The notes under the pieces are model-generated. The model saw only the letters and a list, made by a program, of their open reading frames with translations. It made no database searches and was not told the DNA's origin. From positions 1,612,001-1,676,000 of the forward strand of contig NZ_CP068564.1 of NCBI RefSeq assembly GCF_016767175.1: DNA of 64,000 nucleotides, read 5' to 3'. Position numbers and translations under genes: made by a program. Shown piece by piece: positions 2,079-34,447 of this stretch (positions within the stretch are counted from its first letter, which is position 1; each line of letters starts with the position of its first letter). This DNA is from Keratinibaculum paraultunense (GTDB taxonomy: Bacteria > Bacillota > Clostridia > Tissierellales > Tepidimicrobiaceae).

Positions 2079-2121
2079 CTTTCAAATAAATATATTCTAA
2101 TGATATATTATCAAAATATAT

Positions 2122-2422: not shown

Positions 2423-2470
2423 AATAAAAAATAGATTAGAATTTAAAATAGATATAAATTAATATTAAAT

Positions 2471-12121: not shown

Positions 12122-12143
12122 ATTATACATGAGATATAATAAA

Positions 12144-12413: not shown

Positions 12414-12531
12414 ATTCTAAACTAGTAAATAAAAGTTTATTTAATTCCTATTTTTAATAATATATATTGCTCTTATTTCAGACTTCCTCTTTCTATATAT
12501 TTTCGTTTATACTATTCTTCTATATTAAATT

Positions 12532-13188
12532 TTATTTATCTTTTTCCAATTTTTCATTCCACCATAATTCTGACAAACGAACAATAATATCTAAAATAAA
12601 TCCCGTAATCAGTATTATATATAAAATGTTAATTTTACCCAATAATAAAAATATAGTCACTAAAATATCAACAGTCCCTAAATCCATTCCTATAATAAAT
12701 CCTCTATCCATAAAATACTTTTTTACACCATGTCTTTCGACTGTTTCCAATTTTCTTAGCCTTGGTACTATATAAAAAGTTGCTAGTATAGCATATAAAT
12801 TAATTAAGAATATTACAGAAATAATTAAATACAATGGTACTTCTCCAATACCAATAAAAATAAATATTAAGGTATAAAAAATCCTATCATTTATACTGTC
12901 TAATTTTGCACCTAAATCACTTTTCATATTTTTATATCTAGCTAAATTGCCATCTAATATATCTAAAAACAAATAACATTGTATTAATATTGCTACCCAA
13001 ATATATCTTTGATTATATGCTAAATAAAATATAAACATTGCAAGAAATGAATTAAATATTGTTACCATATTAGGGGTTATGAAAGTTTTTGATATAACAG
13101 GTAGTAACGGTTCAACAACCTTTGTCGTATAAAAATATTCAGCTATATGCATAGTCTTATCTTTTCTTTTATATTGTTTACTTTCCAA
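12532..13188 (-). CDS. CDP-alcohol phosphotransferase, membrane
   Basis: The 218-residue protein has the full CDP-alcohol phosphatidyltransferase signature D-x2-D-G-x2-A-R-x8-G-x3-D-x3-D (from DILDGNLARY to LDSINDR, about residues 77-105) and about six hydrophobic segments. Such enzymes displace CMP from a CDP-alcohol with another alcohol at the membrane. It is the last gene of the island and follows tarI and tarJ, which make CDP-ribitol, so CDP-ribitol is a plausible donor; this is inference. CDP-diacylglycerol is the other family donor. The start chosen is TTG after GAAGTG; an ATG 12 codons later is possible. Confidence 0.8.
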   Translation of the reverse strand: MESKQYKRKDKTMHIAEYFYTTKVVEPLLPVISKTFITPNMVTIFNSFLAMFIFYLAYNQRYIWVAILIQCYLFLDILDGNLARYKNMKSDLGAKLDSINDRIFYTLIFIFIGIGEVPLYLIISVIFLINLYAILATFYIVPRLRKLETVERHGVKKYFMDRGFIIGMDLGTVDILVTIFLLLGKINILYIILITGFILDIIVRLSELWWNEKLEKDK

Positions 13189-13212
13189 AACTTATCACTT
13201 CTCTTTTCCAAT

Positions 13213-14259
13213 TCATAAATTAAATTTTAGAATATATTTTCCTAACTTAAAATTTTTTAACTCCATTTCAAACACATTGTAATAATCAACTATATTATTA
13301 ATATATATTTCATCTAATATCAATTTTGATATCCAATCTTCAAACCTTTTCCTTTCAAATAATAATATTGCTTTTTGAAAATCAGAAACACTACTTCTTG
13401 TAACACCATATAATGATATACCTTTTTCAAGTATCTTTCTGGTATTAATTCCAACATAATCCTCAGCAACACCTGTTAAAATAATCTTACCGCCAACATT
13501 AATTATATCAATACTTTCATTAATAGCATTTCCAGATGAATTTCCACCAACACATTCATAAGCTATATCAATATTTTCTTTATTTATACTATCATCGCCA
13601 ATTAAATAATATTTATCAGCAGGAAACTGTTTGATTTTATTTTCATGTTTACCTACAGCTATTATTTTCCCATCTTTATGAATAACTTTCAATACACAAC
13701 ATAATATGTAACCTAATATCCCATCTCCCCAAATTGCAATCGTTTCATCCCCATTTAATTGAACTCGCCTATATGCAGCTATTGTCACAGAAATTAATTC
13801 TAAAAAAACAGCTATTTTAGATTCTACATTATCAGGAATTTTAATTAAATTAGTAACGGGATAATTTACATACTCTCTCCCAAATCCATTGTAATTACTA
13901 GATGAAAATTTTGCATTAGGACAATAATTTTCTCCTAACTCTGGAATATTACAAACACAATTTAGACATTTGTTGTTATTTTTCGGTACTATATTAGGCA
14001 CCAAAACAACTCTATCACCAACTTTAAATTTATTAGTTTTATCTAATACGATAGTTCCAATAGCTTCATGTAAAAGACTCATAGGATATTTAAATCCTAA
14101 TGTTCTTTCATCCCTAGCTCCTAAATAATATCTTAAATCAGCCTTGCATATAGCTCCATACTCTATTCTAACTATTGCCTCATCTTCTCCACAAATGATA
14201 TCTTCTATATATAAATCAAATCTTTTGGGCTCAACGATTTTAAAGCTTCTGCTTAACAT
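13213..14259 (-). CDS. tarJ: Ribulose-5-phosphate reductase (ribitol-5-P forming), TarJ-type
   Basis: The 348-residue zinc-dependent dehydrogenase resembles TarJ, which reduces D-ribulose 5-phosphate to ribitol 5-phosphate with NADPH. Matching blocks include YGAICKADLRYYLGARDE, PMSLLHEAIGTIV, VGDRVVLVPN, IWGDGILGYILC (nucleotide-binding), and AYECVGGNSSGNAINE. It carries a structural-zinc-like cysteine set (CLNCVCNIPELGENYC). The start overlaps the tarI stop in TAATG. Together with TarI it supplies CDP-ribitol. Confidence 0.9.
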   Translation of the reverse strand: MLSRSFKIVEPKRFDLYIEDIICGEDEAIVRIEYGAICKADLRYYLGARDERTLGFKYPMSLLHEAIGTIVLDKTNKFKVGDRVVLVPNIVPKNNNKCLNCVCNIPELGENYCPNAKFSSSNYNGFGREYVNYPVTNLIKIPDNVESKIAVFLELISVTIAAYRRVQLNGDETIAIWGDGILGYILCCVLKVIHKDGKIIAVGKHENKIKQFPADKYYLIGDDSINKENIDIAYECVGGNSSGNAINESIDIINVGGKIILTGVAEDYVGINTRKILEKGISLYGVTRSSVSDFQKAILLFERKRFEDWISKLILDEIYINNIVDYYNVFEMELKNFKLGKYILKFNL

Positions 14260-14969
14260 TATACCATCTCCGTTTTGCCAAGTTTAATAATTGCCTTTAA
14301 TAAAAGTAAATCATCAAAAGAAGTAATCTTAAAATTTAGTTTATCACCCATAACTAATTTAACTTTTTCTCCTAAATCTAAAACTAATTGACAATCATCC
14401 GTTGAATTTAATTTATTACTTTCTATGGCTGTTTCGTGAGCTCTTTTTATAAGTTCAAATTTAAAACTTTGTGGCGTTTGACCAATATATAACTCGCTTC
14501 TATTTGGAACTTCATGAATTTGTAATCCATCAAGACTTTTTATAATAGTATCTGTACTAGGAATTACTGTATCTGTAGCACCAAATTGTTTTGCACTAGA
14601 GATATTATTACTAATTATTTTATGGCTTACTAATGGTCTTACAGAATCATGTATTACTAAAATATCATCATCATTAACATCTTTTGAAATAGCAATTATT
14701 GCATTATATACAGATTCTTGTCTAGACATTCCTCCCTTTATTAACCACTTAACTTTGTTTATTTCATATTTTCTCAATAGAATTTTCAAATCATCCATCC
14801 ATTCATCTAAACACACTACACCTATATAATCAATTTCTGGATGATTGTCAAAAGTCTCTAATGTATAAACTATAATAGGTTTCCCATAAATATCAATAAA
14901 TTGTTTAGGTTTGTCCACTATTCCCATTCTACTACCGATACCACCAGCTAATATAATTCCTATGTTCAT
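14259..14969 (-). CDS. tarI: Ribitol-5-phosphate cytidylyltransferase, TarI-type
   Basis: This 236-residue protein is a member of the IspD/TarI cytidylyltransferase family. It has the CTP-binding LAGGIGSRMG and PKQF motifs at the N-terminus, GGMSRQESVYNAI, IHDSVRP, and a C-terminal STDDCQLV stretch. IspD has the same fold, but the overlap with a TarJ gene makes ribitol 5-phosphate the likely substrate. The product would be CDP-ribitol, as used for ribitol teichoic acids. It is cytosolic. Confidence 0.88.
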   Translation of the reverse strand: MNIGIILAGGIGSRMGIVDKPKQFIDIYGKPIIVYTLETFDNHPEIDYIGVVCLDEWMDDLKILLRKYEINKVKWLIKGGMSRQESVYNAIIAISKDVNDDDILVIHDSVRPLVSHKIISNNISSAKQFGATDTVIPSTDTIIKSLDGLQIHEVPNRSELYIGQTPQSFKFELIKRAHETAIESNKLNSTDDCQLVLDLGEKVKLVMGDKLNFKITSFDDLLLLKAIIKLGKTEMV

Positions 14970-14986
14970 ATAGTTCCACCCACCTT

Positions 14987-16174
14987 CTAAAATTTACCTT
15001 CCTCTTCAAATAATACTTCTTTAATAAATCTATCCGTAGCTTTCCCATCAAAATGTTCATTAAATCTGATAGCAAACTTCTTAATTATTTCAAAGTCCCA
15101 TTCATTTTTATTTATCAATTCAACTACTTCTTCAGTAGTATAGGCTATAGGACCTGGTACAAAATCAGTATAATTATAATAGAAACCTCTAATTTCATTT
15201 TCATATTTCTCTAAATCATATGCAAAAAATATCATAGGTCTTTGTAAAATAGCATATTCAAATATTATTGAAGAATAATCTGTTATTAATATATCTGCAA
15301 TTATCAAAAGATCATTAATTTCTTCATGAGATAAATCAAATACTTTAGATGATAAACTTTTGTCAATTTTTATTTTTCCCCTCTCAAATGGATGCATTTT
15401 AAAAACAAAAACATAATTATCGGAAATCCTCTCCATTAGATATTCTAAATTTAAAGCTAACGATTCATTATATCTACTGTCATCCCTATAAGTTGGGGCA
15501 TACAATATTATTTTTTTGTCTAATAAATAGGGGTATTTATCTAATAAGCTAGTTTTTATCTTCTCCATTCTACTGCTATCAAAAAAAATATCCGCTCTAG
15601 GTATTCCAATAGGATAAATTTTTTTAATATCTACCCCAAAGGCATTTGCATATATAGGTGCAACTTCTTTTGAGCTAACTATCACTTTTGTATATTGCCC
15701 ATGTCCTCTCATATTTCTTTTCATGATTTCTGCACTAGCCATATTTTGCATAGAATCTTTACCAAATTTCTTAAACGCCCCTCCTCCATGCCAAACTTGT
15801 ATTAATTCTGTTCCTTTTCTAAGCTTGCACATAGAAAAAAGGGAATAATAATCATTGACTATAATATATTTTGCTGTGCATATATTATAATTAATTTTAA
15901 TTGTTGTAATAATCTTTTTTATTCTGAAAGTATATTCTCTTCTAATATCTGAATTACTAACCATTACATAATTTAAATTCCATTTTTGTTTAATCATTTC
16001 ATCATAAATAGCTTTATTGTTTCCAGTAAAGTTATCTGAATGAAAATTTAAAAAAACAATTTTTTTTGTATTAATAGGAAAAACTTTAAATATTGCAAAA
16101 GACAACCTATTTAATATTACTCTTAAAATGTATATAGGTTTTGAATCTAAAAATTTTTTCATTATAATATCCAT
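14987..16174 (-). CDS. TagF/TarF-like polyol-phosphate transferase
   Basis: The 395-residue protein belongs to the CDP-glycerol glycerophosphotransferase family. Visible features are VWHGGGAFKKFGKDS (the conserved H near the acceptor site), YPIGIPRADIFFD, KKIILYAPTYRDD, FVFKMHPFE and ADILITDYSSIIFEYA, the last two being the hallmark donor-binding motifs. It adds polyol phosphate units to an acceptor at the cytosolic face of the membrane. Its length fits TarF/TarB-type primases better than long polymerases. With tarI and tarJ downstream the donor is probably CDP-ribitol. The start is MDIIMKKF, with GGAGGA upstream. Confidence 0.85.
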   Translation of the reverse strand: MDIIMKKFLDSKPIYILRVILNRLSFAIFKVFPINTKKIVFLNFHSDNFTGNNKAIYDEMIKQKWNLNYVMVSNSDIRREYTFRIKKIITTIKINYNICTAKYIIVNDYYSLFSMCKLRKGTELIQVWHGGGAFKKFGKDSMQNMASAEIMKRNMRGHGQYTKVIVSSKEVAPIYANAFGVDIKKIYPIGIPRADIFFDSSRMEKIKTSLLDKYPYLLDKKIILYAPTYRDDSRYNESLALNLEYLMERISDNYVFVFKMHPFERGKIKIDKSLSSKVFDLSHEEINDLLIIADILITDYSSIIFEYAILQRPMIFFAYDLEKYENEIRGFYYNYTDFVPGPIAYTTEEVVELINKNEWDFEIIKKFAIRFNEHFDGKATDRFIKEVLFEEEGKF

Positions 16175-16330
16175 ATGATGTCTTCCTCCATAGTTTGTTA
16201 TATGTAGCATAGTAGGATATAAATATTGCTATGCTAAAGTAAAAGTAATAGTAGTTAATTATTCATTATTATTCATAGCGATTTGAAATTAAATATAGAA
16301 TACAATATTCCTCACTATATATAACCCACA

Positions 16331-17347
16331 TTATTTTGTAATAATAAGAGTCCCCCCAAAATCAGAAATGGGAACCTTCCTTAATTTCCCGAATTTTTGT
16401 TCGAAATTTTGTACCGCTTTCTTTACTCCTAAATAATTTCTCACATTATAATCATGTACAAAAATATATCCTCCTTTACTTAGCCTTGGATAAAAAAATT
16501 CCAATGCATTATATATAGGGTTGTATAAATCCACATCTATCGAAACAAAAGAAAAGCTTTCTTCTATTCCTATTGCTGTATCTGGAAAGAACCCTTTCTT
16601 TATTATACAATTATTTGGATAAGGCATTTTTTTCATTACAATATCTACATTTGTATTTTCAAAAAGATTTTCATGATGAACTAACCTCTCTCGTGTATTG
16701 TCTACAATTAGACCTTTCTCTAAATCATGCTTAATTTCATCGATATTAAAACCTTCAAACGTATCAAACAAGTATAACTTCTTATCTTTGAATAAAATAT
16801 TAATAATTTTGGAAAATTCTCCTCTGTAAACACCTACTTCTGCAACTGCACCTTTTATATCATTATCATAAATTTCATTTGAAACTAATTGCAAAGTTTT
16901 ATATCTAGTATAATCATATTTCTCTAAATACTCATCATCTAAATATTTATCTCTATAATAAGCTATTTCCCTTGTAATAACAAATTCCTCTGGTTGATAC
17001 ATATTAACTATTTGAGACATAATTTTATTATAAGCTTGAATATTCCTTTCCAATACATATTTATATTTTGATACCTCTCTAAATTTATTATCAAATATTA
17101 TTTTAGACTCATCAAAACCTAATTCTATCAAAAAATCGTATATCTCAACATATTCACTTGCTATCATTATATAATCAAAATTTGTTTGTTTAATAGTTTC
17201 TGGATAAAATATTTTGTTGTTTAAAAAAATACTTCCTTCTTTAGTTTTATCGCTATCTAAAAAGCCTAAAATTTCTACCCTGTCCTTCTTTAAACTATTG
17301 TAAAATTTAATTCCTCCACTTCCAGTTCCATAAATATATATCTTCAT
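16331..17347 (-). CDS. Rossmann-domain / TylF-type methyltransferase fusion
   Basis: The first 90 or so residues form a nucleotide-sugar-modifier-like Rossmann unit (MKIYIYGTGSGGIKFYNSLK, then GFLDSD). The rest, from about residue 145, is a TylF/MycF O-methyltransferase: GAVAEVGVYRGEFSKII, LFDTFEGF, SIDVDLYNPIYNALEFFYPRL and the HDYN motif. It probably methylates a sugar in the flagellar glycan. The start is MKIYIYG, with AAAGGA ten bases upstream; a GTG three codons earlier sits too close to the Shine-Dalgarno. The 150-bp gap to the next gene downstream may hold an internal promoter. Confidence 0.78.
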   Translation of the reverse strand: MKIYIYGTGSGGIKFYNSLKKDRVEILGFLDSDKTKEGSIFLNNKIFYPETIKQTNFDYIMIASEYVEIYDFLIELGFDESKIIFDNKFREVSKYKYVLERNIQAYNKIMSQIVNMYQPEEFVITREIAYYRDKYLDDEYLEKYDYTRYKTLQLVSNEIYDNDIKGAVAEVGVYRGEFSKIINILFKDKKLYLFDTFEGFNIDEIKHDLEKGLIVDNTRERLVHHENLFENTNVDIVMKKMPYPNNCIIKKGFFPDTAIGIEESFSFVSIDVDLYNPIYNALEFFYPRLSKGGYIFVHDYNVRNYLGVKKAVQNFEQKFGKLRKVPISDFGGTLIITK

Positions 17348-17379
17348 GTATTTCACGTCCTTTCATTTTATCAAATTTA

Positions 17380-18432
17380 TCACTCCACCAAATCCCACCT
17401 CATCGGTGTACCCTTCTTCACATCACATTTAGCCTTTTCCCCTAATATTTCATCAATATACTTTGTCTCCAAACCAAATCCTGGTCTTATACTTTTTACA
17501 TTTTCTTCTGTAAATACTTCTCCTTTTTTTACATCTTTCACTACAAATAATGATCTAGAATGTTCTCTACTATTTTTTTGTTTTTCCGTTAATTCATAAG
17601 TAACTTGTCCTAATGCTTTTTCTAAGTCTCTTATTCTATCTACCATTTCCTTAAATTCATCTGGTTCCATGGAAAATTTAGCATCTGGACCACCACTTGC
17701 TCTATCTAAAGTAAAATGTTTTTCTACTATTTTTGCTCCCAAGGCTACTGCTCCCAAGGCTACTGTATCGCCTAGAGTGTGGTCTGATAGTCCGACAATT
17801 GTCCTAAATGTGTCTTTCATGTTTGGGATTACTTTTAAGTTAATATCTTCCATGGGTGATGGATATGCTGATGTGCATTTTAAAAATGCTACCTGATCAT
17901 TCCCCATTCCTTTACATGCTGCTAAAGCTGCTTCTATATCTGCTAATGTTGCTATTCCTGTGGATATAATAATTGGCTTTCCTTTAGAGGCTATGTATTC
18001 AATAAACGGAATATCTGTTATTTCAAAAGAAGCTATTTTATAGGCCGGTACATTCATTTCTTCTAAAAAATCTACAGCAGTATTATCAAAAGGTGATGAA
18101 AAACATATCAATCCTTCTTCTTCAGCTATTTTCTTTAGTTTTGGCTGCCATTCCCATGGAGTATAGGCTTCTTCATATAGCTTGTACAAAGTAGTGCCAT
18201 CCCAGATGGTACCTTGTTTTATTTGAAAATATTCATTGTCACAATTTATGGTTATAGTATCAGGTGTATAGGTTTGAAGTTTTATTGCATCTGCTCCAGC
18301 CCATTTAGCTTTTTTTATAGTTTCTACTGCTCTATCATAATCTTGGAGATGATTTGCTGATAGTTCTGCTATTATGAACGCTGGATAATCTTCTCCTATT
18401 TTTATTCCTTCTATTTCTATATATTTATCCAT
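17380..18432 (-). CDS. pseI: Pseudaminic acid synthase
   Basis: The 350-residue NeuB-family enzyme condenses phosphoenolpyruvate with 2,4-diacetamido-2,4,6-trideoxy-L-altrose to give pseudaminic acid. The N-terminal TIM barrel (AFIIAELSANHLQDYDRAVE, DAIKLQTYTPDTIT, SSPFDNTAVDFLEE, YKIASFEITD, LSDHTLG, VEKHFTLDR) is followed by a C-terminal antifreeze/SAF domain (REHSRSLFVVKDVKKGE). Assignment to pseudaminic rather than legionaminic or neuraminic acid comes from pseB, pseC and pseG in the same run. Confidence 0.92.
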   Translation of the reverse strand: MDKYIEIEGIKIGEDYPAFIIAELSANHLQDYDRAVETIKKAKWAGADAIKLQTYTPDTITINCDNEYFQIKQGTIWDGTTLYKLYEEAYTPWEWQPKLKKIAEEEGLICFSSPFDNTAVDFLEEMNVPAYKIASFEITDIPFIEYIASKGKPIIISTGIATLADIEAALAACKGMGNDQVAFLKCTSAYPSPMEDINLKVIPNMKDTFRTIVGLSDHTLGDTVALGAVALGAKIVEKHFTLDRASGGPDAKFSMEPDEFKEMVDRIRDLEKALGQVTYELTEKQKNSREHSRSLFVVKDVKKGEVFTEENVKSIRPGFGLETKYIDEILGEKAKCDVKKGTPMRWDLVE

Positions 18433-18448
18433 ACCTTACCTCCAATCT

Positions 18449-19447
18449 TTAAATTAATGCCATAATCTCATCTACTATTCTTCTACTTCCATTCCCATCT
18501 ACTAAATTAAACATTTGCTTTGAAATTTTCTCCCTATACTTATAATTCTTAATATTCCTTTCAAAAATATCTAAAAAATTTTCTTTTTTAAATTTAAAAT
18601 TTTTCCCTTCTAAATCTATATAATCTATCCCTGTTTTTCTGTGTATTACTTGAACAAATTTTCTTTGATTATCTGCAATTATTATTGCTATGGTTGGTAT
18701 ACCACATGCACATAATTCATATAATGTATTTCCCCCTGCAGAAATGGCTAAGTCACTATTTAGCATTATTTCCGCCATGTTATTTGTATTTATATAAAAT
18801 TTAACTCTTTCATCTTCATAATTTTCTATCATAAAATCTTTATATCTATAAGAATTGCCTAAGATAACATTATATTCTATATCATAATAATTATCTAAAA
18901 GAAAATCTAAAATATCTTTTGTAATATTATACTCATCTCCACCACCTAATGTAATCATGACTTTTTCTACATTAGGTTTTGGTACTTTATATTTTTTATT
19001 TCTAAATTCATCTCTTAATATGGCATATTTAGGTCCTAGAAGTTTTTTTGCACATCCTTTATAATCTATACTTAATGCCTCTATACTAGAATTAACTAAA
19101 ATATCCATATTATATTCACTAAATTTAGCCAAGTCATCTATATATACTATCTTTTTAGCTATATTATAAAATTTATTTATTCCATGTTCATTAATACTAT
19201 AATCATCTACTATGGCTAAATCATATTTTGGTTTTTGATGACTTGATAAATAATCTAAAATGTTTTCTACAATTATTGTATGAAATCCATTATTTTGAAG
19301 CAGTTTTATAATACTGTTATCACTATTATCAATAATATATTCGACATAAATCTCTCTTTTTTTTAATTCTTTAGCTAAAGTTAATGCCCTCATTATATGT
19401 CCTATACCAATAGCTGATGAGCCATTGGCGTAAATTATTACTTTCAT
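18449..19447 (-). CDS. pseG: UDP-2,4-diacetamido-trideoxy-altrose hydrolase
   Basis: PseG removes UDP from the activated sugar just before PseI acts. The 332-residue protein has the GT-B-like layout of the family: N-terminal GSSAIGIGHIMRALTLAKEL with the catalytic His in GHIMR, VDDYSIN, MITLGGGDEYN, and SDLAISAGGNTLYELCACGIP in the donor-binding half. No acetyltransferase domain is fused to the C-terminus, although some PseG homologues carry PseH there. Confidence 0.9.
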   Translation of the reverse strand: MKVIIYANGSSAIGIGHIMRALTLAKELKKREIYVEYIIDNSDNSIIKLLQNNGFHTIIVENILDYLSSHQKPKYDLAIVDDYSINEHGINKFYNIAKKIVYIDDLAKFSEYNMDILVNSSIEALSIDYKGCAKKLLGPKYAILRDEFRNKKYKVPKPNVEKVMITLGGGDEYNITKDILDFLLDNYYDIEYNVILGNSYRYKDFMIENYEDERVKFYINTNNMAEIMLNSDLAISAGGNTLYELCACGIPTIAIIIADNQRKFVQVIHRKTGIDYIDLEGKNFKFKKENFLDIFERNIKNYKYREKISKQMFNLVDGNGSRRIVDEIMALI

Positions 19448-19454
19448 ATTATTC

Positions 19455-20189
19455 CTATGCCTTCTTCTGTTTTATGTTTTTATTTATACTAGCTATATTA
19501 GGATTTTCATCTAAAAATTTTACTACTTCCTTAGCTTCTATATATTCATCTTGAAAATGATTGAATATAGTTTCTACTAATTTAAAATCCTCTATAGTAT
19601 CCACAGATAATCTATAGTCTTTATTGTAAAATTCATTTCCTTTTACAATACCTATATTAAATTTATCTGGATTTTCATAAATATATAATGTAACATGCTC
19701 TTTATATCTATGAGAATTCCCTAAAGAAGAAACTTCCCCCCACACTTTCAACAATGTTTTGGATGAAAATACTTCTACATCAAAACCTCTTATAAAAGTC
19801 TCTGGTACATCTAATCTTACATAATCATAGTTATTAGCCATAAAATATGTAACTACATTGTCTACAATAAAAGGATCTATTAACGGACAATCTCCAGTAA
19901 TCCTAATTATAATATCTCCACCATATTTTTTATATGTATCTACATATCTTTTTAATACATTATCTTCCTCTCCTCTAAACACTTTATAACCTTTGTTTTT
20001 TACTATATCAACCAAGAAATCGTCTCTCTTTTCTATAGTCGTAGCTAAAACTAATTCATCTATATATTTAGATTTTCTAAGTCTTTTTAAAATGTAGATT
20101 ATCATAGGCTCATTTAAAATAGGCTTAATAACCTTTTTTGGTAATCGTTCAGAGCCTGTCCTAGCTTGTACTATGCACAGTACTGTCAT
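19455..20189 (-). CDS. pseF: CMP-pseudaminate synthetase-like cytidylyltransferase
   Basis: The 244-residue protein is of the SpsF/NeuA-type cytidylyltransferase family, with the N-terminal CTP-binding VQARTGSERLPKKV and RITGDCPLIDP blocks, and RLSVDTIEDFKLV towards the end. In this cluster it most likely activates pseudaminic acid to CMP-pseudaminic acid. The SpsF branch is less specific in annotation than true PseF, so the symbol is an inference from context. It overlaps the HAD gene by four bases. Confidence 0.75.
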   Translation of the reverse strand: MTVLCIVQARTGSERLPKKVIKPILNEPMIIYILKRLRKSKYIDELVLATTIEKRDDFLVDIVKNKGYKVFRGEEDNVLKRYVDTYKKYGGDIIIRITGDCPLIDPFIVDNVVTYFMANNYDYVRLDVPETFIRGFDVEVFSSKTLLKVWGEVSSLGNSHRYKEHVTLYIYENPDKFNIGIVKGNEFYNKDYRLSVDTIEDFKLVETIFNHFQDEYIEAKEVVKFLDENPNIASINKNIKQKKA

Positions 20190-20860
20190 TTTAATTCCTC
20201 CAGTATATTTTCTAATTCTAGTAGAGATTTTATATTATAATTTGCTTCATGTTTTTCATCTAAAAAAGTATTCATATGGTCCCCAATGGGACGAATTATT
20301 CTAATAGAATTAATCCCCAATTCCTTACAAGGTAAAAAATCCTTGTTTGGATTGTCCCCTATATATACAGCTTCTTCTGGTTTAATATTGAAATATTCTA
20401 GCATCATTTGAAATGGTCTTATACTAGGTTTCCAGTATTCTTTCCCATAATCATCTGTAACAATAATCTTATCCATGTATTTTTCAATATTTAAAGCTTT
20501 AATCTTATTCCACTGAGTATCTTTATAACCATCAGTTATAAGTCCTAATTTATATTTAGCTTTAAATTTTTCTAAAACTTCATAAGCATCATTATAAAGA
20601 AAAATTTTAGGCTTATGATGTCTGTATATTCTAACTAAGTTGCCAATATTCTCTTCAAAATGATATTTTTCGCATATATAGTCAAAAATTTTTCCCCTTC
20701 CTTGGGAATTTAAAATTTCAACCATGTCCTTAAATAATATATCTTTGTTTATTTCATATTTATTAGATAAAAATACAGCCACTTCCATAAATCCACCATA
20801 TACAAAGTCTATTTCATTATATAAAGTATCATCTAAATCAAATATAATTAATTTTATCAT
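20186..20860 (-). CDS. HAD-superfamily hydrolase
   Basis: The 224 residues show HAD motif I DLDDTLYNE, motif II LITDGYKDTQ, a Lys in KPSIRPF, and motif IV YIGDNPNKDF. It is a small C1-cap phosphatase. It sits between the ATP-grasp gene and pseF and overlaps pseF by four bases, so its substrate is probably a phosphorylated intermediate of the glycan pathway, but this is not proven. Confidence 0.85.
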   Translation of the reverse strand: MIKLIIFDLDDTLYNEIDFVYGGFMEVAVFLSNKYEINKDILFKDMVEILNSQGRGKIFDYICEKYHFEENIGNLVRIYRHHKPKIFLYNDAYEVLEKFKAKYKLGLITDGYKDTQWNKIKALNIEKYMDKIIVTDDYGKEYWKPSIRPFQMMLEYFNIKPEEAVYIGDNPNKDFLPCKELGINSIRIIRPIGDHMNTFLDEKHEANYNIKSLLELENILEELK

Positions 20861-20868
20861 CTTTCCCC

Positions 20869-21807
20869 CTAAATATAAATTGCTTCATCATATCTAAGCA
20901 TTATCATTTCTTTAAATTCTCCTATAATTGGTCTCACATTATACCCTTCAACCATTTTGCCTAAATATTTAGCATATGGTACTCCTGCTTCAAAGGTTAA
21001 AGGAACTCCACCACCAAATCTTGTATTTACTTCTATAAATTTTATATTATTATCCAAATCTACAATACATTGAATAGTCAATGGACCTATAGGTTTTGTG
21101 TTTTTATCTATTTTTAATTTATTGCATAGTTTTAAAGTTTTTTCAATTATATCTTTGTTTTTAACCGTTCTGCCTTTTGATACTTCCCCTGCTCTAACTT
21201 CTATTCTTTCTCTTGGGACTATGGAAATTACATTTCCTTTTAAATCACATAATACATCTATGGTATATTCCGTTCCTTTTATATATTCTTGAATAATTGG
21301 GTTTTCTATGTAATCTATAAAAAAACTTAATTCCTTTTTATTGTCTACTTTAAACACATTTTGACTACCTGCTCCATTTATTGGTTTAATAATTAGTGGG
21401 AAATTAAAATCTTTCACTCCCTGTTTCTTATAAGTCATAGGTGTATCTATACCATTCTCAATAAAAAATCTATAACTCTCCCATTTGTCATTAAATATTT
21501 CTATTATTTTTTTATCACTTAATATAAGTATCGTACCTGTTTTATTAAACTTTTCTCTATTTTCACATAATAATATAAATTCCTTTTCATATAAAGGAAT
21601 TAACATATCTACATTTTCTTTTTTACATATATTTAAAAGGGTGTTTACATATTCTTTATCATCCCACTTTGGAACTTTATAAAAAGAATCTACAAAATGC
21701 TTAGCTGGTGCTAGTTCTCCAGTATCTACCCCTATTACCTTATGATATTTTTTAAAATGATTTATTAATTGCACTCTTCTTCCTATAGCTGTAAACAATA
21801 CATTCAT
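20869..21807 (-). CDS. ATP-grasp ligase
   Basis: The 312-residue protein is an ATP-grasp enzyme of the carbamoyl-phosphate-synthase-like group: an N-terminal pre-ATP-grasp part (MNVLFTAIGRRVQLINHFKK), the ATP-binding IIKPINGAGSQNVF, the EYIKGTEYTIDVLCD region, and FIEVNTRFGGGVPLT with metal ligands. Such enzymes join a carboxylate to an amine or thiol. In this cluster it could acylate or aminoacylate an amino-sugar, the step for which no PseH is visible. The true substrate is unknown. Confidence 0.82.
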   Translation of the reverse strand: MNVLFTAIGRRVQLINHFKKYHKVIGVDTGELAPAKHFVDSFYKVPKWDDKEYVNTLLNICKKENVDMLIPLYEKEFILLCENREKFNKTGTILILSDKKIIEIFNDKWESYRFFIENGIDTPMTYKKQGVKDFNFPLIIKPINGAGSQNVFKVDNKKELSFFIDYIENPIIQEYIKGTEYTIDVLCDLKGNVISIVPRERIEVRAGEVSKGRTVKNKDIIEKTLKLCNKLKIDKNTKPIGPLTIQCIVDLDNNIKFIEVNTRFGGGVPLTFEAGVPYAKYLGKMVEGYNVRPIIGEFKEMIMLRYDEAIYI

Positions 21808-21818
21808 CCTTAATTCAA

Positions 21819-23012
21819 CTACCTTTTATAATATTTTAATACTTTATCCAATGCTTCTACCACATCTTTAACATCTTTATCAGTCATTTTAGGATATAAT
21901 GGTATAGTTATAATTCTTTCATACAATTTTTCTGCATTAGGACATAGTCCCTTTTTATATCCTAATTTTTGATAGTATGGATGATAATAAACTGGAATAT
22001 AATGAACATTTACTCCAATATTTTCAGCTTGTAAGGCTTCAAATATTTCACGTCTCCCCACTTTAAACTTTTCCAGTTCCAATTGAATAACATATAAATG
22101 CCAAGAAGATTTTATATATTCTTCTTGATAAGGCAATACAATTCCATCTATATCTTTTAAATATTCGTTGTACTTTTCTGCTATTTCTCTTCTTCTTCTT
22201 AGAAATTTATCTATTTTATTCAACTGACTTATGCCTAATGCACATTGAATATCTGTAATTCTATAATTATAGCCCAATTCTAATTGTTCGTAATACCAAG
22301 AACTTTCATTTTTATTATATAGGATTTCCTTATCCCTTGTTATTCCATGGGTTCTAAATAATTTTAATTTTTCATATAATTCTTTATTATTAGTAGTAAT
22401 CATACCACCTTCTCCAGTAGTAATATGTTTTACTGGATGAAAACTAAAAGTTGTCATATCCACTAATGAACCTATTCTTTTACCTTTATATTCTGCTCCT
22501 AAGGAATGAGCACCATCTTCTATAACTATTAAATTATATTTTTTAGCTATAGCATTAATCTCATCTATATTAACAGGTTGTCCTGTAAAATCTACTGGAA
22601 CAATAGCTTTAGTTTTACTGCTAATCTTTTCTTCTATATCTTTAGGATCTATATTATATGTACTAGAATCTATGTCTGCAAATACAGGCTTACCTCCTTG
22701 ATATAGTATGCAATTAGCAGATGCTGCAAAAGTTATGGGAGTTGTTATCACTTCATCTCCCTCTTTAATGCCTGCTGCAAATGAAGCTCCATGCAGTGCT
22801 GCTGTTCCATTAGATATAGCTACTGCATATTTTACCCCAACATATTTACCAAATTTTTCTTCAAACTCTTTTATTTTAGGTCCAGTGGTAAGGTAGTCAG
22901 ATTTTAGTGCCTTTACTACTTCTTCTATATCATCATCCTCTATCCACTGTTGCCCATAAGGTAAATAAGTATCTCTTACAGGCGTACCTCCATTTATGGC
23001 TAATTTAGTCAT
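21819..23012 (-). CDS. pseC: UDP-4-amino-4,6-dideoxy-AltNAc transaminase
   Basis: PseC is a PLP aminotransferase that acts on the 4-keto product of PseB. The 397-residue protein has GPKIKEFEEKFGKYVGVKYA, AISNGTAALHGA, VIEDGAHSLGAEYKG, and FHPVKHITTGEGGM with the PLP lysine. The start is MTKLAINGG, overlapping the pseB stop in ATGA; a longer frame of 31 residues only reads pseB in another frame. The gene belongs to the aminotransferase class used for nucleotide sugars. Confidence 0.92.
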   Translation of the reverse strand: MTKLAINGGTPVRDTYLPYGQQWIEDDDIEEVVKALKSDYLTTGPKIKEFEEKFGKYVGVKYAVAISNGTAALHGASFAAGIKEGDEVITTPITFAASANCILYQGGKPVFADIDSSTYNIDPKDIEEKISSKTKAIVPVDFTGQPVNIDEINAIAKKYNLIVIEDGAHSLGAEYKGKRIGSLVDMTTFSFHPVKHITTGEGGMITTNNKELYEKLKLFRTHGITRDKEILYNKNESSWYYEQLELGYNYRITDIQCALGISQLNKIDKFLRRRREIAEKYNEYLKDIDGIVLPYQEEYIKSSWHLYVIQLELEKFKVGRREIFEALQAENIGVNVHYIPVYYHPYYQKLGYKKGLCPNAEKLYERIITIPLYPKMTDKDVKDVVEALDKVLKYYKR

Positions 23013-24046
23013 TTTGTCACCGCCACTTCTCCAATATATTCTTGAACATTTGGCATCATATCCAATTCTGTTAATAATCTCCTCAAATCTTCCACATCTA
23101 ACCATTCACTATTAGTTCCTGAATTATATTCAAAACCTTCTTCAATTGGCTTTCCACCATTGGTAAAATACCTTTCTGAGCTCCACCAATCAAAATGAGG
23201 ATATATTATATAATGATTTTCATATTCATAGGTCATTCTAGAATCATCTTTAGTAATCATTACTTCATGGAGTTTTTCTCCTTCTCTAATTCCTACTTCT
23301 TCTAGTATAACTTTAGGGTTCATAGCTTTAGCCAAGTCTATAATCTTAAAAGAAGGTATTTTAGAAATATAAGTTTCTCCACCTTTGGATTCTTCTATTG
23401 CTTTAAAAACTAATTCTACACCTTGTTCTAATGTTATCCAAAACCTTGTCATACGGAAATCAGTTATTGGAAGTTTGTTTTTCCCCTTTTCAATTAATTC
23501 TTTAAAAAAAGGTATAACTGAACCTCTACTACCTGCTACATTTCCATATCTAACTACTGAAAACCTAGTACCTTCCCCACCAGAATATGCATTTGCAGAT
23601 ATAAATAATTTGTCTGAAACTAATTTTGTTCCTCCATATAAATTAATTGGATTTACAGCTTTATCAGTAGATAATGCAACTACCTTTTTAACTCCTCTAT
23701 CTAATGCTGCATCTATTACATTTTGAGCACCATGAATATTAGTTTTTATAGCTTCAAAGGGATTATATTCGCAAGCAGGTACTTGTTTCATAGCTGCAGC
23801 ATGAATTACATAATCTACTCCATTAAATGCCCTATATAATCTTTCTTTATCTCTTACATCTCCTATAAAAAACCTTATATTCTTTTTATAAGATGGAAAC
23901 TTTTGTTTCATTAAAAACTGTTTATATTCATCTCTAGAATATATAATAACTTTTTTTGGTTTATACCTTTTAAACACCATTTCAGTAAATTTTTGCCCAA
24001 AAGAGCCTGTCCCACCAGTTATAAGTATTGTTTTGTTGTTTAACAT
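23009..24046 (-). CDS. pseB: UDP-GlcNAc 4,6-dehydratase (inverting)
   Basis: PseB is the first enzyme of the pseudaminic acid pathway and gives UDP-2-acetamido-2,6-dideoxy-L-arabino-hexos-4-ulose. The 345 residues are the usual length. The NADP-binding ITGGTGSFGQKF, RDEYKQFLMKQKF, IHAAAMKQVP and the catalytic-type YGGTKLVSDK are all present. It opens the sugar-synthesis run directly after the Maf gene. Confidence 0.94.
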   Translation of the reverse strand: MLNNKTILITGGTGSFGQKFTEMVFKRYKPKKVIIYSRDEYKQFLMKQKFPSYKKNIRFFIGDVRDKERLYRAFNGVDYVIHAAAMKQVPACEYNPFEAIKTNIHGAQNVIDAALDRGVKKVVALSTDKAVNPINLYGGTKLVSDKLFISANAYSGGEGTRFSVVRYGNVAGSRGSVIPFFKELIEKGKNKLPITDFRMTRFWITLEQGVELVFKAIEESKGGETYISKIPSFKIIDLAKAMNPKVILEEVGIREGEKLHEVMITKDDSRMTYEYENHYIIYPHFDWWSSERYFTNGGKPIEEGFEYNSGTNSEWLDVEDLRRLLTELDMMPNVQEYIGEVAVTK

Positions 24047-24055
24047 ATTTATCCC

Positions 24056-25915
24056 TCACCTATTCTCTAAAAATACTTCTATATTTAATTTCATTTCATT
24101 GTAAACCTCTTCTATATTATCTATATCTTCTTTGCATAAATCCATAAAACCTTTAAAAGCATCTATTATCCTTTTGCCTTTTTTAACTGGATCTTTTTCT
24201 TCATTTAGACTATCTATACTATTAGCTAGTAATTCATACTGAACTCTATTCATAGGTAATATAAATACTTTGAAAAAATCATTATTTTCAATCTTTCTTA
24301 AAACCTTGTCCAACTTTATATAGGTTTTCTCTGCTTGATTAAAATTTTTATTTCTTATCAATCTCTCTATCTTATTTAAAGTATCATAATAATCATCTAT
24401 TAATTTTAATGCCCTTTTATAGGCTATATCCATTTTTTTAGATTGAGTCTCTAAATATTCTCTATCATATCTGGTTTTATTTCCCTCTAGCCAATTATGT
24501 TCCACTACCTTTTCTTTTAAATATTTATCAATTACAATTTTCAACTCTATAAAATCTGTTCCCTCTATATGAGCTCCACCTTTTGTTGTGTTTATTACCT
24601 TTACATTATGTAAAATCTTAATATATTGCTCCATTTGCTGCCTCATACTATCAAATCCCAAACTTGTTAATATTTTTTCCCCATATACATCTTTAACATA
24701 AATTCCATTTTCAATATCTTTATCTGTAATATCTCTACTATAATGAATACCTTCTGAATGTCGTTTTTTACCTTTGTATGCTAGATTTTGTCCTACCAAT
24801 ATTATTGGGTTAAACCCTAGTTCATATAATAATTGTAATGTTACGACTGCTATAGTTGGTGCATCATATACCATATCTATGGGCTTATTGTTTTCGTTTC
24901 TTAAATAGTAATTAGATACAGAATCTTGGCTAGTAATCATATGATATTTCTTTCCTGGATAATTTATTAATGTTTCGTATCCAACACTAGAGCCAAATAT
25001 CATAGGTATTTCTTTTATTCCTTTTTCCTTAATCTTTGTAAATACATTTTGATTAAATTTTCCAGGATCGTATGTACAAGCTACATCTGGATATATGTTA
25101 TAATGAACTAAAGTATTAACAGCAGAGCCTACACTAAATATATAGGCCAATCCATTATCCTTTATATATCTAATATTCTCTATTTCTTCATTCAATGATG
25201 GTCCTGCTGCTACAAGTATAGCAGGCTTGTCTTTAAATTCACCTTTCTTCTCTAATAGAATATTTGGAGTATTTAATACTTCTCCAAAGTTTTTCATACT
25301 ATTTAAAATCCATCTTTCTTGAAAAATTAGATTTGTTCCAATACTAGTTTTTTTATCTTTTAAAGTTTCTTTAAATAACTCTATAAATTGATTATACTTC
25401 TCAGCATATATGTTTTTATGGCTATTTAATGGTATACAGATAAAATTATCACTTGTTTTATTTATAATATTATCAAAAAATTTTATAGTTTCTAATTTAT
25501 TATCTGCTAATACAATATCCTTTAAATTTAATGAAGGTAGCTTTTTTAATGGTTTATAGGATAAATAAGCATATAGTATTTCTGGTATTGGTTCATATAT
25601 ATAATAATTTACATTGGGATGTTTTTTCAAAAATAAGTCTATATGATAGCCTAACCCTACTCCATAAAATATTATTGTTGTATTATCTTCGATATTACTG
25701 TATTGGTTTACTATAGTTTCTCCTTCTCGAATTGGATTATACTTACTATGAAGGTATACTTTTTTATTGTTTTTTTCTACCCATAAGGTTTTGTACCCCT
25801 TTTTAGTTTCTTCTATTTGAATTGAGTCCATATCTAAAGAATCTTCTAAAGATTTTAATTTCTGCCAAGTTCTAGGATATGTCAGCTTTAATATATTAAT
25901 ATTATCTGCCAGCAT
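24056..25915 (-). CDS. Maf-family flagellin glycosyltransferase (DUF115)
   Basis: The 619-residue protein has the DUF115/Maf core (PAILVAAGPSLNEEIENI, SVGSAVNTLVH, DVACTYDP, GFNPIILVGQNLAYKGKKRH, INTTKGGAHIEGT). Maf proteins transfer nonulosonic acids such as pseudaminic acid onto flagellin serines and threonines. A long helical C-terminal part (about 490-619) is present. The start lies within the last 14 bases of the upstream 208-residue gene, so the two are probably translated together. Confidence 0.87.
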   Translation of the reverse strand: MLADNINILKLTYPRTWQKLKSLEDSLDMDSIQIEETKKGYKTLWVEKNNKKVYLHSKYNPIREGETIVNQYSNIEDNTTIIFYGVGLGYHIDLFLKKHPNVNYYIYEPIPEILYAYLSYKPLKKLPSLNLKDIVLADNKLETIKFFDNIINKTSDNFICIPLNSHKNIYAEKYNQFIELFKETLKDKKTSIGTNLIFQERWILNSMKNFGEVLNTPNILLEKKGEFKDKPAILVAAGPSLNEEIENIRYIKDNGLAYIFSVGSAVNTLVHYNIYPDVACTYDPGKFNQNVFTKIKEKGIKEIPMIFGSSVGYETLINYPGKKYHMITSQDSVSNYYLRNENNKPIDMVYDAPTIAVVTLQLLYELGFNPIILVGQNLAYKGKKRHSEGIHYSRDITDKDIENGIYVKDVYGEKILTSLGFDSMRQQMEQYIKILHNVKVINTTKGGAHIEGTDFIELKIVIDKYLKEKVVEHNWLEGNKTRYDREYLETQSKKMDIAYKRALKLIDDYYDTLNKIERLIRNKNFNQAEKTYIKLDKVLRKIENNDFFKVFILPMNRVQYELLANSIDSLNEEKDPVKKGKRIIDAFKGFMDLCKEDIDNIEEVYNEMKLNIEVFLENR

Positions 25916-26528
25916 TCATATCAACCTTTTCTAATACTAATTTCCCCAATTTTTCTTTCATTTCTTTAAATAAAGGCGCTATTTCATAAGATAGTATGTC
26001 TGCTGTAGATACAAAATCACTATTTTCTAATATTTCTTCAAACTCTCTTATCAATCCACCTAATTCATGGATATCTTTTGCATATAGATTCCATTCTTCA
26101 TAACTATTCACTATGTCTTTTAATTCTGGATTTGAATCAATAATTACGAAGCTATCTATAATCCATTTAATTCCTTCTAAAAGCTGTATTAATTTATTCC
26201 ATGAACCCTGTAAAGGCTGTTTATAAAATTCATCTGCTAATATTTCTATTTCAGGTACGACTCTATCAATATAATCTATGGTACTTAAAATTATATCTTG
26301 AGATATTCCTTTGATAGTTTTAGTAACAACCCTTACTTCTTCAATATTTTTAATATTATCTAAAAAATAATCATAATAATTATCATATACATCAATTCCA
26401 TCTATTATTAAATGACTAAATACTAAATTTGTACTATTTATTATACTATCAATTTTATTAAATATCTCATCTATTATATCTTCGCTATTACAATACTCCA
26501 AAATTTTATCTAATATATATATTTTCAT
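25902..26528 (-). CDS. Conserved-looking helical protein, unknown
   Basis: The 208-residue acidic protein has no motif I recognise. It begins MKIYILDKILEYCNSEDIID and is predicted by eye to be mostly helical, without membrane segments or signal peptide. It is placed immediately before, and overlapping, a Maf glycosyltransferase gene, so a role with flagellin glycosylation or flagellin handling is plausible. A terminator at 26605-26640 separates it from the upstream coiled-coil gene, so it probably begins a transcript running into the pse genes. Confidence 0.72.
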   Translation of the reverse strand: MKIYILDKILEYCNSEDIIDEIFNKIDSIINSTNLVFSHLIIDGIDVYDNYYDYFLDNIKNIEEVRVVTKTIKGISQDIILSTIDYIDRVVPEIEILADEFYKQPLQGSWNKLIQLLEGIKWIIDSFVIIDSNPELKDIVNSYEEWNLYAKDIHELGGLIREFEEILENSDFVSTADILSYEIAPLFKEMKEKLGKLVLEKVDMNAGR

Positions 26529-26604
26529 TTAATTACCTCCAAACTTTAATCTATATATGTTATCGACAAGATTAGGAATTTTTTTATTATATATCACAAA
26601 AATA

Positions 26605-26640
26605 TCACAAAAGGTCTTTTGAAAAATTAAAGACCTTCTA
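26605..26640 (-). terminator. Terminator after the coiled-coil gene
   Basis: AAGGTCTTT and AAAGACCTT pair around an eight-base loop, followed by a T-rich tail on the minus strand. It lies 25 bases past the stop of the gene at 26664-27107. Confidence 0.75.
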
Positions 26641-26663
26641 TATAATATCATCATTATTCATAT

Positions 26664-27107
26664 TTATACATATTTTTTTCTAATTTTTCTTATTTCAACT
26701 TCATGTTCACCATACATTTCCATGATTAATTTATTTGTTTCCTCTAGGTTACATATTCTATTTTCCAAGTTTTTTATTTGTTTTTTCAATTCTCCTGCTT
26801 CTCTAGCTAAGATAATATTAAATTTATCCATTCCAGCTTTATGAACTTGACTACTATGTTGTAGAGCTTTTAATATTTGAGTATTTTCTTTAACTTGAAC
26901 TTCTATAATATCAGTCTTGTTTTGAACTCTTTCAAGGCTTTTATTCGTCTCTTTTTGCTCATTTTTCATTGCCTTCATATCGCTTTGCATTGCCTTCATA
27001 TCGCTTTGCATCGTATTCATATTACTTTGCATTGCCTTCATATCGCTTTGCATCGTATTCATATTACTTTGCAACACTTTTAAAATTTCTAAAATTTCAT
27101 TTTCCAT
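26664..27107 (-). CDS. Coiled-coil protein with heptad repeats, unknown
   Basis: The 147-residue protein is almost wholly coiled coil. Residues about 11-50 are five near-identical heptads of the types MQSDMKA and MQSNMNT, followed by less regular heptads (KNEQKETNKSLERV, QVKENTQILKALQ). It has no membrane segment. It lies between two Maf-type genes of the flagellin glycosylation island. The function is unknown. The 21-bp DNA repeats can expand or contract without shifting frame. Confidence 0.7.
   Translation of the reverse strand: MENEILEILKVLQSNMNTMQSDMKAMQSNMNTMQSDMKAMQSDMKAMKNEQKETNKSLERVQNKTDIIEVQVKENTQILKALQHSSQVHKAGMDKFNIILAREAGELKKQIKNLENRICNLEETNKLIMEMYGEHEVEIRKIRKKYV
26965..27075. 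repeat. Tandem 21-bp (7-codon) repeats in the coiled-coil gene
   Basis: Five units of 21 bases encode MQSDMKA or MQSNMNT heptads; two unit types alternate so that a 42-bp period is also visible. There are no spacers, so it is not a CRISPR array. Confidence 0.85.
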
Positions 27108-27174
27108 TTTCTCACCACCTTTTATTCATTATTATATCAAATATAAATTAATATTTATACAGTTTTTTAAAAAT

Positions 27175-28512
27175 TTAAATTAAATATCTGTCTATAGTTT
27201 CCTTTAAAGTTAATATTTCTGTTCCCTTTATTTTAGCTCCTCCTTCTGTTGCATCTATAAATTTTATTCCTTTTTCGTTTACTATTCTATTTTGAATCCA
27301 TCTTAAGTAACTATATAAATTTTTAGGAGAATAAACTGTATTTCCATATATATCTTCTACTCTTCTTAAATTTCTATATCCATTTACTTCTTTGGAATAA
27401 CTGAATTTAGAGTGAGTTTTTCCATCTGTGTATGCTAAATCTTGCCCTACAAATATTATTGGATTACAACCCATATTAATAGCAACATCTAAAGCTGTAG
27501 TGGCTACTGAACCTCCTGTTTGGACTAGCTTATGATTATGTTTCTTAGCATATTCTTCAGCTGGTGTATATCCTTCTTGTAATGCTATCAGCTTTTTCCC
27601 TTTATAATTTAGCATTACATTTTTATCACAGGTAGATAATACTATAAGGGGTATATCTATATCCAAGCCTTTTAATTGACTATTATATACAAATTTTTGA
27701 GGATCTGTAATAATAATAAAATCTGGCTCTATATTTTCTTTTAATAAGAATCTAACTGCTCTACCAACTGATAAGATTATACCCTTCCCTTTAGCTTTTT
27801 TAAGTTCTTTTATATTTTTATCTAAAGATGGTCCTGCAGATATAATGTATAAAGGTATATTATTATATTTATTAAATAATATATCTACATTATCATTATA
27901 ATTTTTAATATTAGATTTAAAATTTTCATTTAATGTTGGAGCAAATTTCTCTACTGAATCCTCTTTCATTTTAAATTCTTCTAATAAATATTTTAATTCT
28001 AATAAGTTTCCAGACATTGTTTTAAAGGATGGATTATGAAGGACTATTTTTATATCTTCTTTTATAAGTACCTCATTTAATATTTCATTAATCTCAACTA
28101 TATCATCTGTTACAAACAGTTTAGCTCTACTGTTTCTAATAATATTGCTTAAATCTACATTCTCTAATGCTAATCTAAATATTTCTTTATTAGTTTCAAT
28201 TATGTAAAAATTAGAATTAGGAGCCATAGACATCAATTCTTCTACATGATATCCAAATCCTAAACCAAATATTATATAATTTTGAATTGATATATCATAA
28301 TTCTCTTCTGCTATGCTTTTTGCTTCTCTATTTGGATTGTATTTACTATGCAAAAAATAAAACTTGCCCTCTTGATTGATTTTTACTGTGGATTGATTGG
28401 TCTTGGTTTTTGTTATTTCATATGTGTTTTTATTCGGTATTATTTTTATTATGTCTTTAAGGATATTTGGGTAATTTTTCTTCAGTAAGTTTATGTTGTT
28501 TTCATAATGCAT
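27175..28512 (-). CDS. Second Maf-like protein (DUF115), short form
   Basis: At 445 residues this is a shorter paralogue of the Maf protein at 24056-25915. Shared blocks are IIFGLGFGYHVEELM, PLYIISAGPSLDKNIKEL, ILSVGRAVRFLL, GCNPIIFVGQDLAYTDGKTHS and IDATEGGAKIKGTE. It ends soon after the core, without the long C-terminal helical part. It follows flagellin in the direction of transcription, after a terminator. Glycosyltransferase or glycan-related activity is likely. Confidence 0.82.
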   Translation of the reverse strand: MHYENNINLLKKNYPNILKDIIKIIPNKNTYEITKTKTNQSTVKINQEGKFYFLHSKYNPNREAKSIAEENYDISIQNYIIFGLGFGYHVEELMSMAPNSNFYIIETNKEIFRLALENVDLSNIIRNSRAKLFVTDDIVEINEILNEVLIKEDIKIVLHNPSFKTMSGNLLELKYLLEEFKMKEDSVEKFAPTLNENFKSNIKNYNDNVDILFNKYNNIPLYIISAGPSLDKNIKELKKAKGKGIILSVGRAVRFLLKENIEPDFIIITDPQKFVYNSQLKGLDIDIPLIVLSTCDKNVMLNYKGKKLIALQEGYTPAEEYAKKHNHKLVQTGGSVATTALDVAINMGCNPIIFVGQDLAYTDGKTHSKFSYSKEVNGYRNLRRVEDIYGNTVYSPKNLYSYLRWIQNRIVNEKGIKFIDATEGGAKIKGTEILTLKETIDRYLI

Positions 28513-28577
28513 ATTTATTCCTCCATTTTATAATGATAATATATATATATTATCATATGCATATAAAACTCTCTATA

Positions 28578-28613
28578 CTAAAAAGAGTCAGAGGAAAAAT
28601 CCCTGACTCTTTC
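28578..28613 (-). terminator. Flagellin gene terminator
   Basis: A 12-bp stem AAAGAGTCAG... / ...CTGACTCTTT with a short loop is followed by TTTTT on the minus strand, 19 bases after the hag stop. Confidence 0.9.
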
Positions 28614-28631
28614 TTTAAATTAGACATCTGC

Positions 28632-34420: not shown

Positions 34421-34447
34421 ATCTATTCACCTCTTTATTTATAAACT

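Follow-up and report, generated by a model that had tools for sequence, protein, structure and literature searches.

Why do genes usually associated with teichoic acid synthesis lie among flagellin glycosylation genes? The question is raised by a 64,000-nucleotide (nt) stretch of the Keratinibaculum paraultunense chromosome (NZ_CP068564.1, positions 1,612,001 to 1,676,000; hereafter the window, whose own coordinates are used below), where tarI, tarJ and a TarL-like gene of the TagF family (PF04464) share a run with pseudaminic acid (Pse) and Maf genes next to hag, the flagellin gene. The original prediction proposed a flagellar or surface glycan carrying ribitol phosphate on, or beside, Pse. 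Our analysis of gene families, gene order and relatives indicates that the run is probably a flagellin glycosylation island in which an exchangeable cassette for phospho-polyols would decorate a nonulosonate flagellin glycan. The comparisons described below give good support to the idea that CDP-ribitol chemistry would serve this glycan.

The same-direction run described in the original prediction was borne out by gene families and PDB matches, and comprises 16 genes, all on the minus strand and 3′ of hag (28632-29489), from mafA (28512) to a CDP-alcohol phosphotransferase gene (12532). It adjoins hag plus FliW, flagellin-domain (FlgL-type), FlgK, FlgK and FlgN genes, which lie upstream. The presence of hag, two Maf genes and pseBCGI beside flagellin and hook genes identifies a flagellin glycosylation island, and the hag product is the probable protein carrier of the glycan. 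From the gene for a 208-amino-acid (aa) protein to the PF01066 gene at the end of the run, intergenic gaps range from -14 to 24 nt, the TagF-like gene excepted. The gap 5′ of this gene is 120 nt to the longest open reading frame (ORF), or 156 nt to the probable start, an ATG at 16174 preceded by GGAGG; no terminator-like site was found in the 156-nt gap separating it from the methyltransferase gene.

The enzymes of the cassette point to CDP-ribitol. TarI and TarJ match structures that we take to be from Staphylococcus aureus (Table 1; next best for TarJ, 7e-19), and the pair is assigned, on family membership, to CDP-ribitol synthesis. We rejected tarI as a misnamed ispD, since the genome has a stronger IspD match at another locus and the ribitol model prevails for this protein. 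The TarL-like protein scores 295 bits on PF04464 (cut-off 22) and possesses both histidine motifs of the family, WHGGGAFK and KMHPF, whose histidine residues are presumably catalytic. At the first motif, WHGGGAFK compares with WNAVGAFK in the TarL entry and WHGTPLK in TagF. The best PDB match is TarL (8va1, 2.9e-58), and the TarL, TarF and TarB models give 248, 168 and 132 bits against curated cut-offs of 1000, 550 and 500. We do not class the protein as a TarL polymerase, as the match spans only residues 185-560 of TarL and includes no N-terminal region. The TylF-type methyltransferase, which the original prediction had placed in the run together with the CDP-alcohol phosphotransferase, seems to be part of the cassette; its counterpart in a relative, genome G015, is 42% identical and lies between tagD and a TagF-like gene.

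To place the island among its relatives, we surveyed 61 genomes, comprising its own (G000) and 60 of its family and order. Homologues of mafB (E ≤ 1e-30) occur in 22 of these, own included, and PF04464 exceeds its cut-off in seven, all of them among the 22 (hypergeometric P 0.0004, with genomes taken as independent though related). Four of the seven carry the gene in the island on one contig, and two with the gene at contig ends fit an island; PF04464 and Maf genes share a contig in G000, G009, G015 and G043, 3.3-16.3 kb apart. TagD (E ≤ 1e-20) was found in three of the 61, G009, G015 and G027, each time near a Maf gene on the same contig, although the G027 match lies below cut-off. PseI (E ≤ 1e-80) occurs in nine genomes, including four of the seven with TagF-family genes (G000, G015, G027 and G043). 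Because of these relatives, we regard the association of tar genes with flagellin islands as more than chance. For closer comparison, 49 stretches were fetched (annotation excludes L045, L070, L087, L091, L093, L096-L098 and L101-L103), and ORFs of other loci took their labels from similarity to 23 proteins of the window (E 1e-5), except where a family search supplied the name.

Individual relatives reveal what may occupy the slot beside the nonulosonate genes. G015 shares the core of the island (PseI 91%, PseB 85%, PseC 81% and MafB 71% identical to the window), and its pseI is followed by tagD, tylF and a different TagF-like gene (31%), with gaps of 14-18 nt between longest ORFs. G001 belongs to the same genus as the window, with MafB and PseB 97% identical; its TagF-like protein shares 76% identity with the G015 protein and 32% (260 aa) with the window protein, and the glycosyltransferase adjoining the gene is 71% identical to its G015 equivalent. 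This TagF gene lies at the end of a short contig. The island contig of G027 terminates with a TagD-like gene and a short C2185-like ORF; the TagF gene of this genome occupies the end of another contig, leading to pseI. G043 instead possesses tarI-tarJ (78% and 68%) between the CMP transferase gene and pseI, inside a hag-maf-pse island; next comes a fusion that weakly resembles PF04464. Two fusions of a methyltransferase/C2185-like N-terminal part with a weak PF04464 part were seen in a single flagellin island in L044 (1387-3177 and 7216-8994). TarL minus TarF scores are +80 bits for the window, +9 for G015, -10 for G009, -20 for G027, about 0 for G001 and -109 for G030. Overall, the slot holds either tarIJ or tagD genes, and the tagD set of some relatives looks like a glycerol version. 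It is conceivable, and we propose it tentatively, that CDP-ribitol and CDP-glycerol cassettes are swapped at this slot, so that the filament surface varies like O-antigen; as the closest match of the transferase is TarL, a polymerase, short chains of poly(ribitol phosphate) might even be attached to the filament, amounting to a teichoic acid on flagellin.

Beyond this sample, TarJ was found in eight of 249 genomes of the order, namely G000, G043 (69%) and six of one genus (38-41%), and in five of 398 genomes of a phylum sample (own included), three of which (65-67%) have tarI-tarJ beside pseI. A single-protein scan of genome contigs with TarJ gave 94 pattern matches and no relative, and an alignment query gave five loci, from four Bacillota metagenome-assembled genomes (L079-L082) and Lutispora thermophila (TarJ 57%). 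All four metagenome-assembled loci contain tarI-tarJ-pseI, and L079 extends into hag, FlaG, FliD and FliS; L080-L082 are contigs of G452, G080 and G348. Upstream of tarI-tarJ-pseI, L075 (the same locus as L080) encodes an NTP transferase, a fusion of a cytidylyltransferase with phosphoenolpyruvate mutase, and an iron alcohol dehydrogenase (244-3493), a possible sign of a phosphonate in this glycan. The TarL-like protein has 18 matches in 11 of the 398 phylum genomes (own included), and those TagF-family genes that lie outside the order could well belong to ordinary teichoic acid synthesis.

Several observations weigh against a polyol-phosphate cassette dedicated to flagellin. The 156-nt gap sets the TagF-like gene apart. 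Its product falls far under the cut-offs of the TarL and TarF models, and the G043 fusions reach only 36 and 42 bits on PF04464, misaligned at the first histidine motif. TagD was not found in G001. The TagF gene of G030 is on a contig of 7.6 kb that has no Maf match, and G023 and G060, both Maf genomes, have PF04464 matches under cut-off on contigs other than those of their Maf matches. No TagF-like gene was seen on the contigs L079-L082, which are 3.8-11 kb long. In one of the six genomes with a 38-41% TarJ, the 18 kb opened contain nothing matching hag, Maf or pse, and the 21 kb of the Lutispora thermophila locus contain no match to hag, Maf or PseI. Finally, the G009 island has a NeuB-type synthase, showing that the cassette is not tied to Pse. 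The original prediction is partly supported, with the association extending to nonulosonate islands that are not of the Pse type.

The best surviving alternative, which we consider unlikely, is that the tar genes serve to build a reduced teichoic acid or some other surface polymer, for which TagA might be the initiating enzyme, and simply neighbor the flagellin island. The genome does encode a single TagA/WecG-type protein (C1:327021), and in Lutispora thermophila related tarIJ genes adjoin LicD and a flippase-like gene in a polysaccharide-type locus. However, the TagA-type gene sits beside a group 1 glycosyltransferase, Wzy_C and a polysaccharide pyruvyl transferase, no polyol-phosphate gene is among the ten proteins named there, and we read it as a secondary cell-wall polymer locus. 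A full wall teichoic acid locus elsewhere, which the original prediction had named among the findings that would speak against it, is absent: at E ≤ 0.001, the island gene is the only PF04464 gene of the whole genome, and the TarB and TarF of a ribitol-phosphate wall teichoic acid locus were not found in the genome. Since a classical pathway of the tagB-tagF or tarB-tarL type requires at least two proteins of the PF04464 family, neither is encoded elsewhere. With no second PF04464 gene and a polysaccharide-type context for TagA, we rejected a wall teichoic acid locus. The restriction of over-threshold PF04464 genes to Maf genomes (7/7), together with the position of all three tagD matches of the 61 genomes near Maf genes, likewise counts against a mere neighbor.

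It is improbable that CDP-ribitol is mainly used by the membrane CDP-alcohol phosphotransferase for a phospho-ribitol lipid or lipid-linked product. This PF01066 gene starts 24 nt after tarJ, and its product contains a complete DxxDGxxAR(x8)GxxxDxxxD motif, which we take to be that of CDP-alcohol enzymes. In NCBIfam it matches mainly synthases of the phospholipid type, none of them above cut-off (best 64 bits, cut-off 180), and a phospholipid-type modification has been proposed for a Geobacillus island with tagD and pgs (PMC5109656). Against this, the PF01066 protein is the best match of no ORF among those listed for the other islands (its own locus, L060, apart), whereas a TagF-family gene recurs, and the PDB match of the PF01066 protein, AF2299 (4.2e-8), is titled only CDP-alcohol phosphotransferase. 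Any role for this enzyme is a guess.

It is just as doubtful that the TarL-like protein moves another CDP-alcohol, or transfers ribitol phosphate directly onto flagellin or onto a soluble sugar nucleotide before Maf: the TagF-like CD0244 of Clostridioides difficile is proposed to move phosphothreonine (PMC10714395), but here tarI and tarJ directly adjoin the TarL-like gene, whose TarL score exceeds its TarF score by a margin not seen in G015, G009 or G027.

For the favored flagellin glycan cassette, a pathway can be outlined in which the four Pse steps and CDP-ribitol synthesis are predicted from family membership, and the substrates, acceptor, order of steps and product on flagellin are inferred. 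PseB, PseC, PseG and PseI, with the CMP transferase, would produce a CMP-pseudaminic acid derivative, and the Maf proteins would transfer the Pse derivative to flagellin serine or threonine residues in the cytoplasm. TarJ would reduce ribulose-5-phosphate to ribitol-5-phosphate, TarI would convert this to CDP-ribitol, and the TarL-like protein would transfer ribitol phosphate from CDP-ribitol onto the nonulosonate. The nonulosonate is the simplest acceptor because Pfam scans of the island proteins revealed no GT1 or GT2 family member. The TylF-type enzyme may methylate the sugar or the polyol.

The CMP-Pse pathway is represented by PseB, PseC, PseG and PseI by model and by PseF by position alone; the CMP-sugar synthase scores only 38 bits on the PseF model (cut-off 206) and is not called PseF. 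PseH is absent from the island, and four weak matches in the genome are all under cut-off (best 52 bits, cut-off 93). No GNAT gene lies between pseB and pseI in the island or in that of G015. The islands of G012, G019, G040 and G010 do contain a GNAT gene and have no ATP-grasp match. An ATP-grasp/HAD pair (20186-21807) may replace PseH, with another acyl group. The pair is also present in G027 and G043, where only some genes were named; G010 has a PseI of just 35% identity, and in G023 an ATP-grasp match reaches 27%. Between pseB and pseC, G015 carries formyltransferase-like and DUF4910/DUF2172 genes (L041 2892-5071) that are absent in the window; their presumed counterparts in G043 (L059 13006-15152) are assigned on size and position only. 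The mafA product scores 79 bits on the PseD model, under its cut-off of 670. Relatives of the 208-aa protein (39-68% identical) lie upstream of a MafB-type gene in all 14 other opened genomes with a contig reaching that point; G001, whose contig ends before it, is not counted.

Table 1. Features of the flagellin glycosylation island (window coordinates) and GNAT genes of related islands (coordinates of the loci named).
Feature	Position	Strand	Evidence or remark
hag, flagellin, 285 aa	28632..29489	minus	Flagellin_N/C; flagellin Hag model 361 bits, cut-off 352
hag terminator-like hairpin	28513-28631	minus	long G+C-containing stem, U run; fold z -4.6
mafA, Maf-type flagellin glycosyltransferase, 445 aa	27175..28512	minus	MptE-like + Maf_flag10_N
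147-aa coiled-coil protein	26664..27107	minus	no Pfam family; weak coiled-coil matches
208-aa protein, upstream of mafB	25902..26528	minus	no Pfam or NCBIfam family
mafB, Maf-type flagellin glycosyltransferase, 619 aa	24056..25915	minus	MptE-like + Maf_flag10_N
pseB	23009..24046	minus	TIGR03589 563 bits, cut-off 408
pseC	21819..23012	minus	TIGR03588 526 bits, cut-off 424; start is ATG behind ribosome-binding site
ATP-grasp ligase, candidate PseH replacement	20869..21807	minus	ATP-grasp_3; PRK12767 476 bits
HAD phosphatase-like protein	20186..20860	minus	HAD_2 5.7e-30
CMP-sugar synthase, PseF role by position	19455..20189	minus	CTP_transf_3 5.3e-33
pseG	18449..19447	minus	TIGR03590 216 bits, cut-off 154
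pseI, pseudaminate synthase	17380..18432	minus	TIGR03586 511 bits, cut-off 340
TylF-type methyltransferase	16331..17356	minus	TylF 2.8e-18
TarL-like CDP-polyol phosphotransferase, ~395 aa	14987..16174 (longest ORF to 16210)	minus	PF04464 7.2e-88; single catalytic domain
tarI, ribitol-5-phosphate cytidylyltransferase	14259..14969	minus	NF001183 241 bits, cut-off 166; PDB 6xhp 3.7e-53
tarJ, ribulose-5-phosphate reductase	13213..14259	minus	best PDB 6xh9, 2.6e-59
CDP-alcohol phosphotransferase, membrane protein	12532..13188	minus	PF01066 1.1e-18
GNAT genes of the G012, G019, G040 and G010 islands	L051 15366-15890; L050 6594-7064; L046 14687-15226; L085 5932-6465		

Transcription signals were sought across the window. 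The hairpin between hag and mafA was more stable than any of 200 shuffled sequences (0/200 as stable) and is unlisted by the consensus terminator scan; given this strong terminator-like structure, hag is probably largely a separate transcript. The consensus scan placed minus-strand sites only at 20708, which falls within the HAD gene, and at 11700 and 10922. A window search with a pattern that we take to represent sigma-28-type promoters gave three sites (minus 36724, minus 29768 and plus 32375), the first upstream of flgN, the second ~250 nt upstream of hag and none inside the island. The minus-strand sites (29768-29742 for hag and 36724-36698 for flgN) are of the type TAAA-N15/16-CCGATAA and resemble flagellar sigma-28 promoters. 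Among flanking features, the FlgK-type genes are tandem (33002-35893; 472 and 481 aa), as in G015, G027, G040 and G043. Downstream of the last gene, ~1.7 kb (10852-12531) lacks a minus-strand ORF of 100 aa and may be decayed, and the adjacent 9829-10851 encodes a protein of 340 aa for which neither Pfam nor NCBIfam gave a match.

Comparison with known systems bears on the statement of the original prediction that no such combination was known to have been described. The closest parallels in enzyme types are the C. difficile Type A glycan (cd0240-cd0244), for which the TagF-like CD0244 is essential (PMC10714395), and the Pseudomonas aeruginosa PAO1 b-type glycan, which carries dimethylthreonine by a phosphodiester (PMC11833859). 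Like the present island, both have a phosphotransferase, a cytidylyltransferase and a methyltransferase; in author-proposed roles, these enzymes of the two known systems place a phosphodiester-linked group on a flagellin sugar. They differ in their N-acetylglucosamine (GlcNAc) or deoxyhexose core and methylated threonine, and the parts of these texts covered mention neither a Pse/Maf set nor TarI/TarJ. Compared by description, the Type A system has a GlcNAc transferase, a phosphothreonine maker and a CDP-threonine synthase; a GT2 transferase was not found in the island. Geobacillus Type II-IV islands also have Pse genes without PseH, one strain with tagD and pgs, but their authors propose a phospholipid derivative, and ribitol, teichoic and glycerophosphotransferase are absent from the main text (PMC5109656). 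Enterobacterial flagellin islands of type 12, found in two strains, contain ribitol-synthesis genes as here; these bacteria are Gram-negative, and the parts covered give no Pse/Maf or transferase details (PMC4875605). Clostridium islands for Pse or legionaminic acid similarly combine flagellar loci with nonulosonate and methyltransferase genes, but teichoic, ribitol, phosphotransferase and ATP-grasp are absent from the main text of that 2026 survey (PMC13317340). A Campylobacter TagF-like gene belongs to a capsule locus, not a flagellin locus (PMC8949473). The tarIJL module of ribitol-phosphate wall teichoic acid has the same three enzyme types; here the order is TarL-like, tarI, tarJ, in a flagellin island, in a genome without TarB or TarF, and the N-terminal TarL region is missing. 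The claim of novelty is thus upheld in part: phosphodiester flagellin glycans, and ribitol or tagD genes in flagellin islands, are already in print, and the combination of tarIJ and a TarL-like gene with Pse and Maf genes was not found in searches of an open-access library.

Ribitol phosphate is a known component of protein glycans on mammalian alpha-dystroglycan (PMC4873967). If our reading is true, K. paraultunense would provide a bacterial flagellin counterpart of alpha-dystroglycan built with teichoic acid enzymes, joining two fields. It would also supply a rule for such cassettes, with tagD islands expected to add +154.00 Da and tarIJ islands +214.02 Da to a flagellin nonulosonate, and would account for the persistence of a single TagF-family gene in genomes that have no other. 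The resulting variation in charge might be a response to the recognition of flagella by phages or immune systems.

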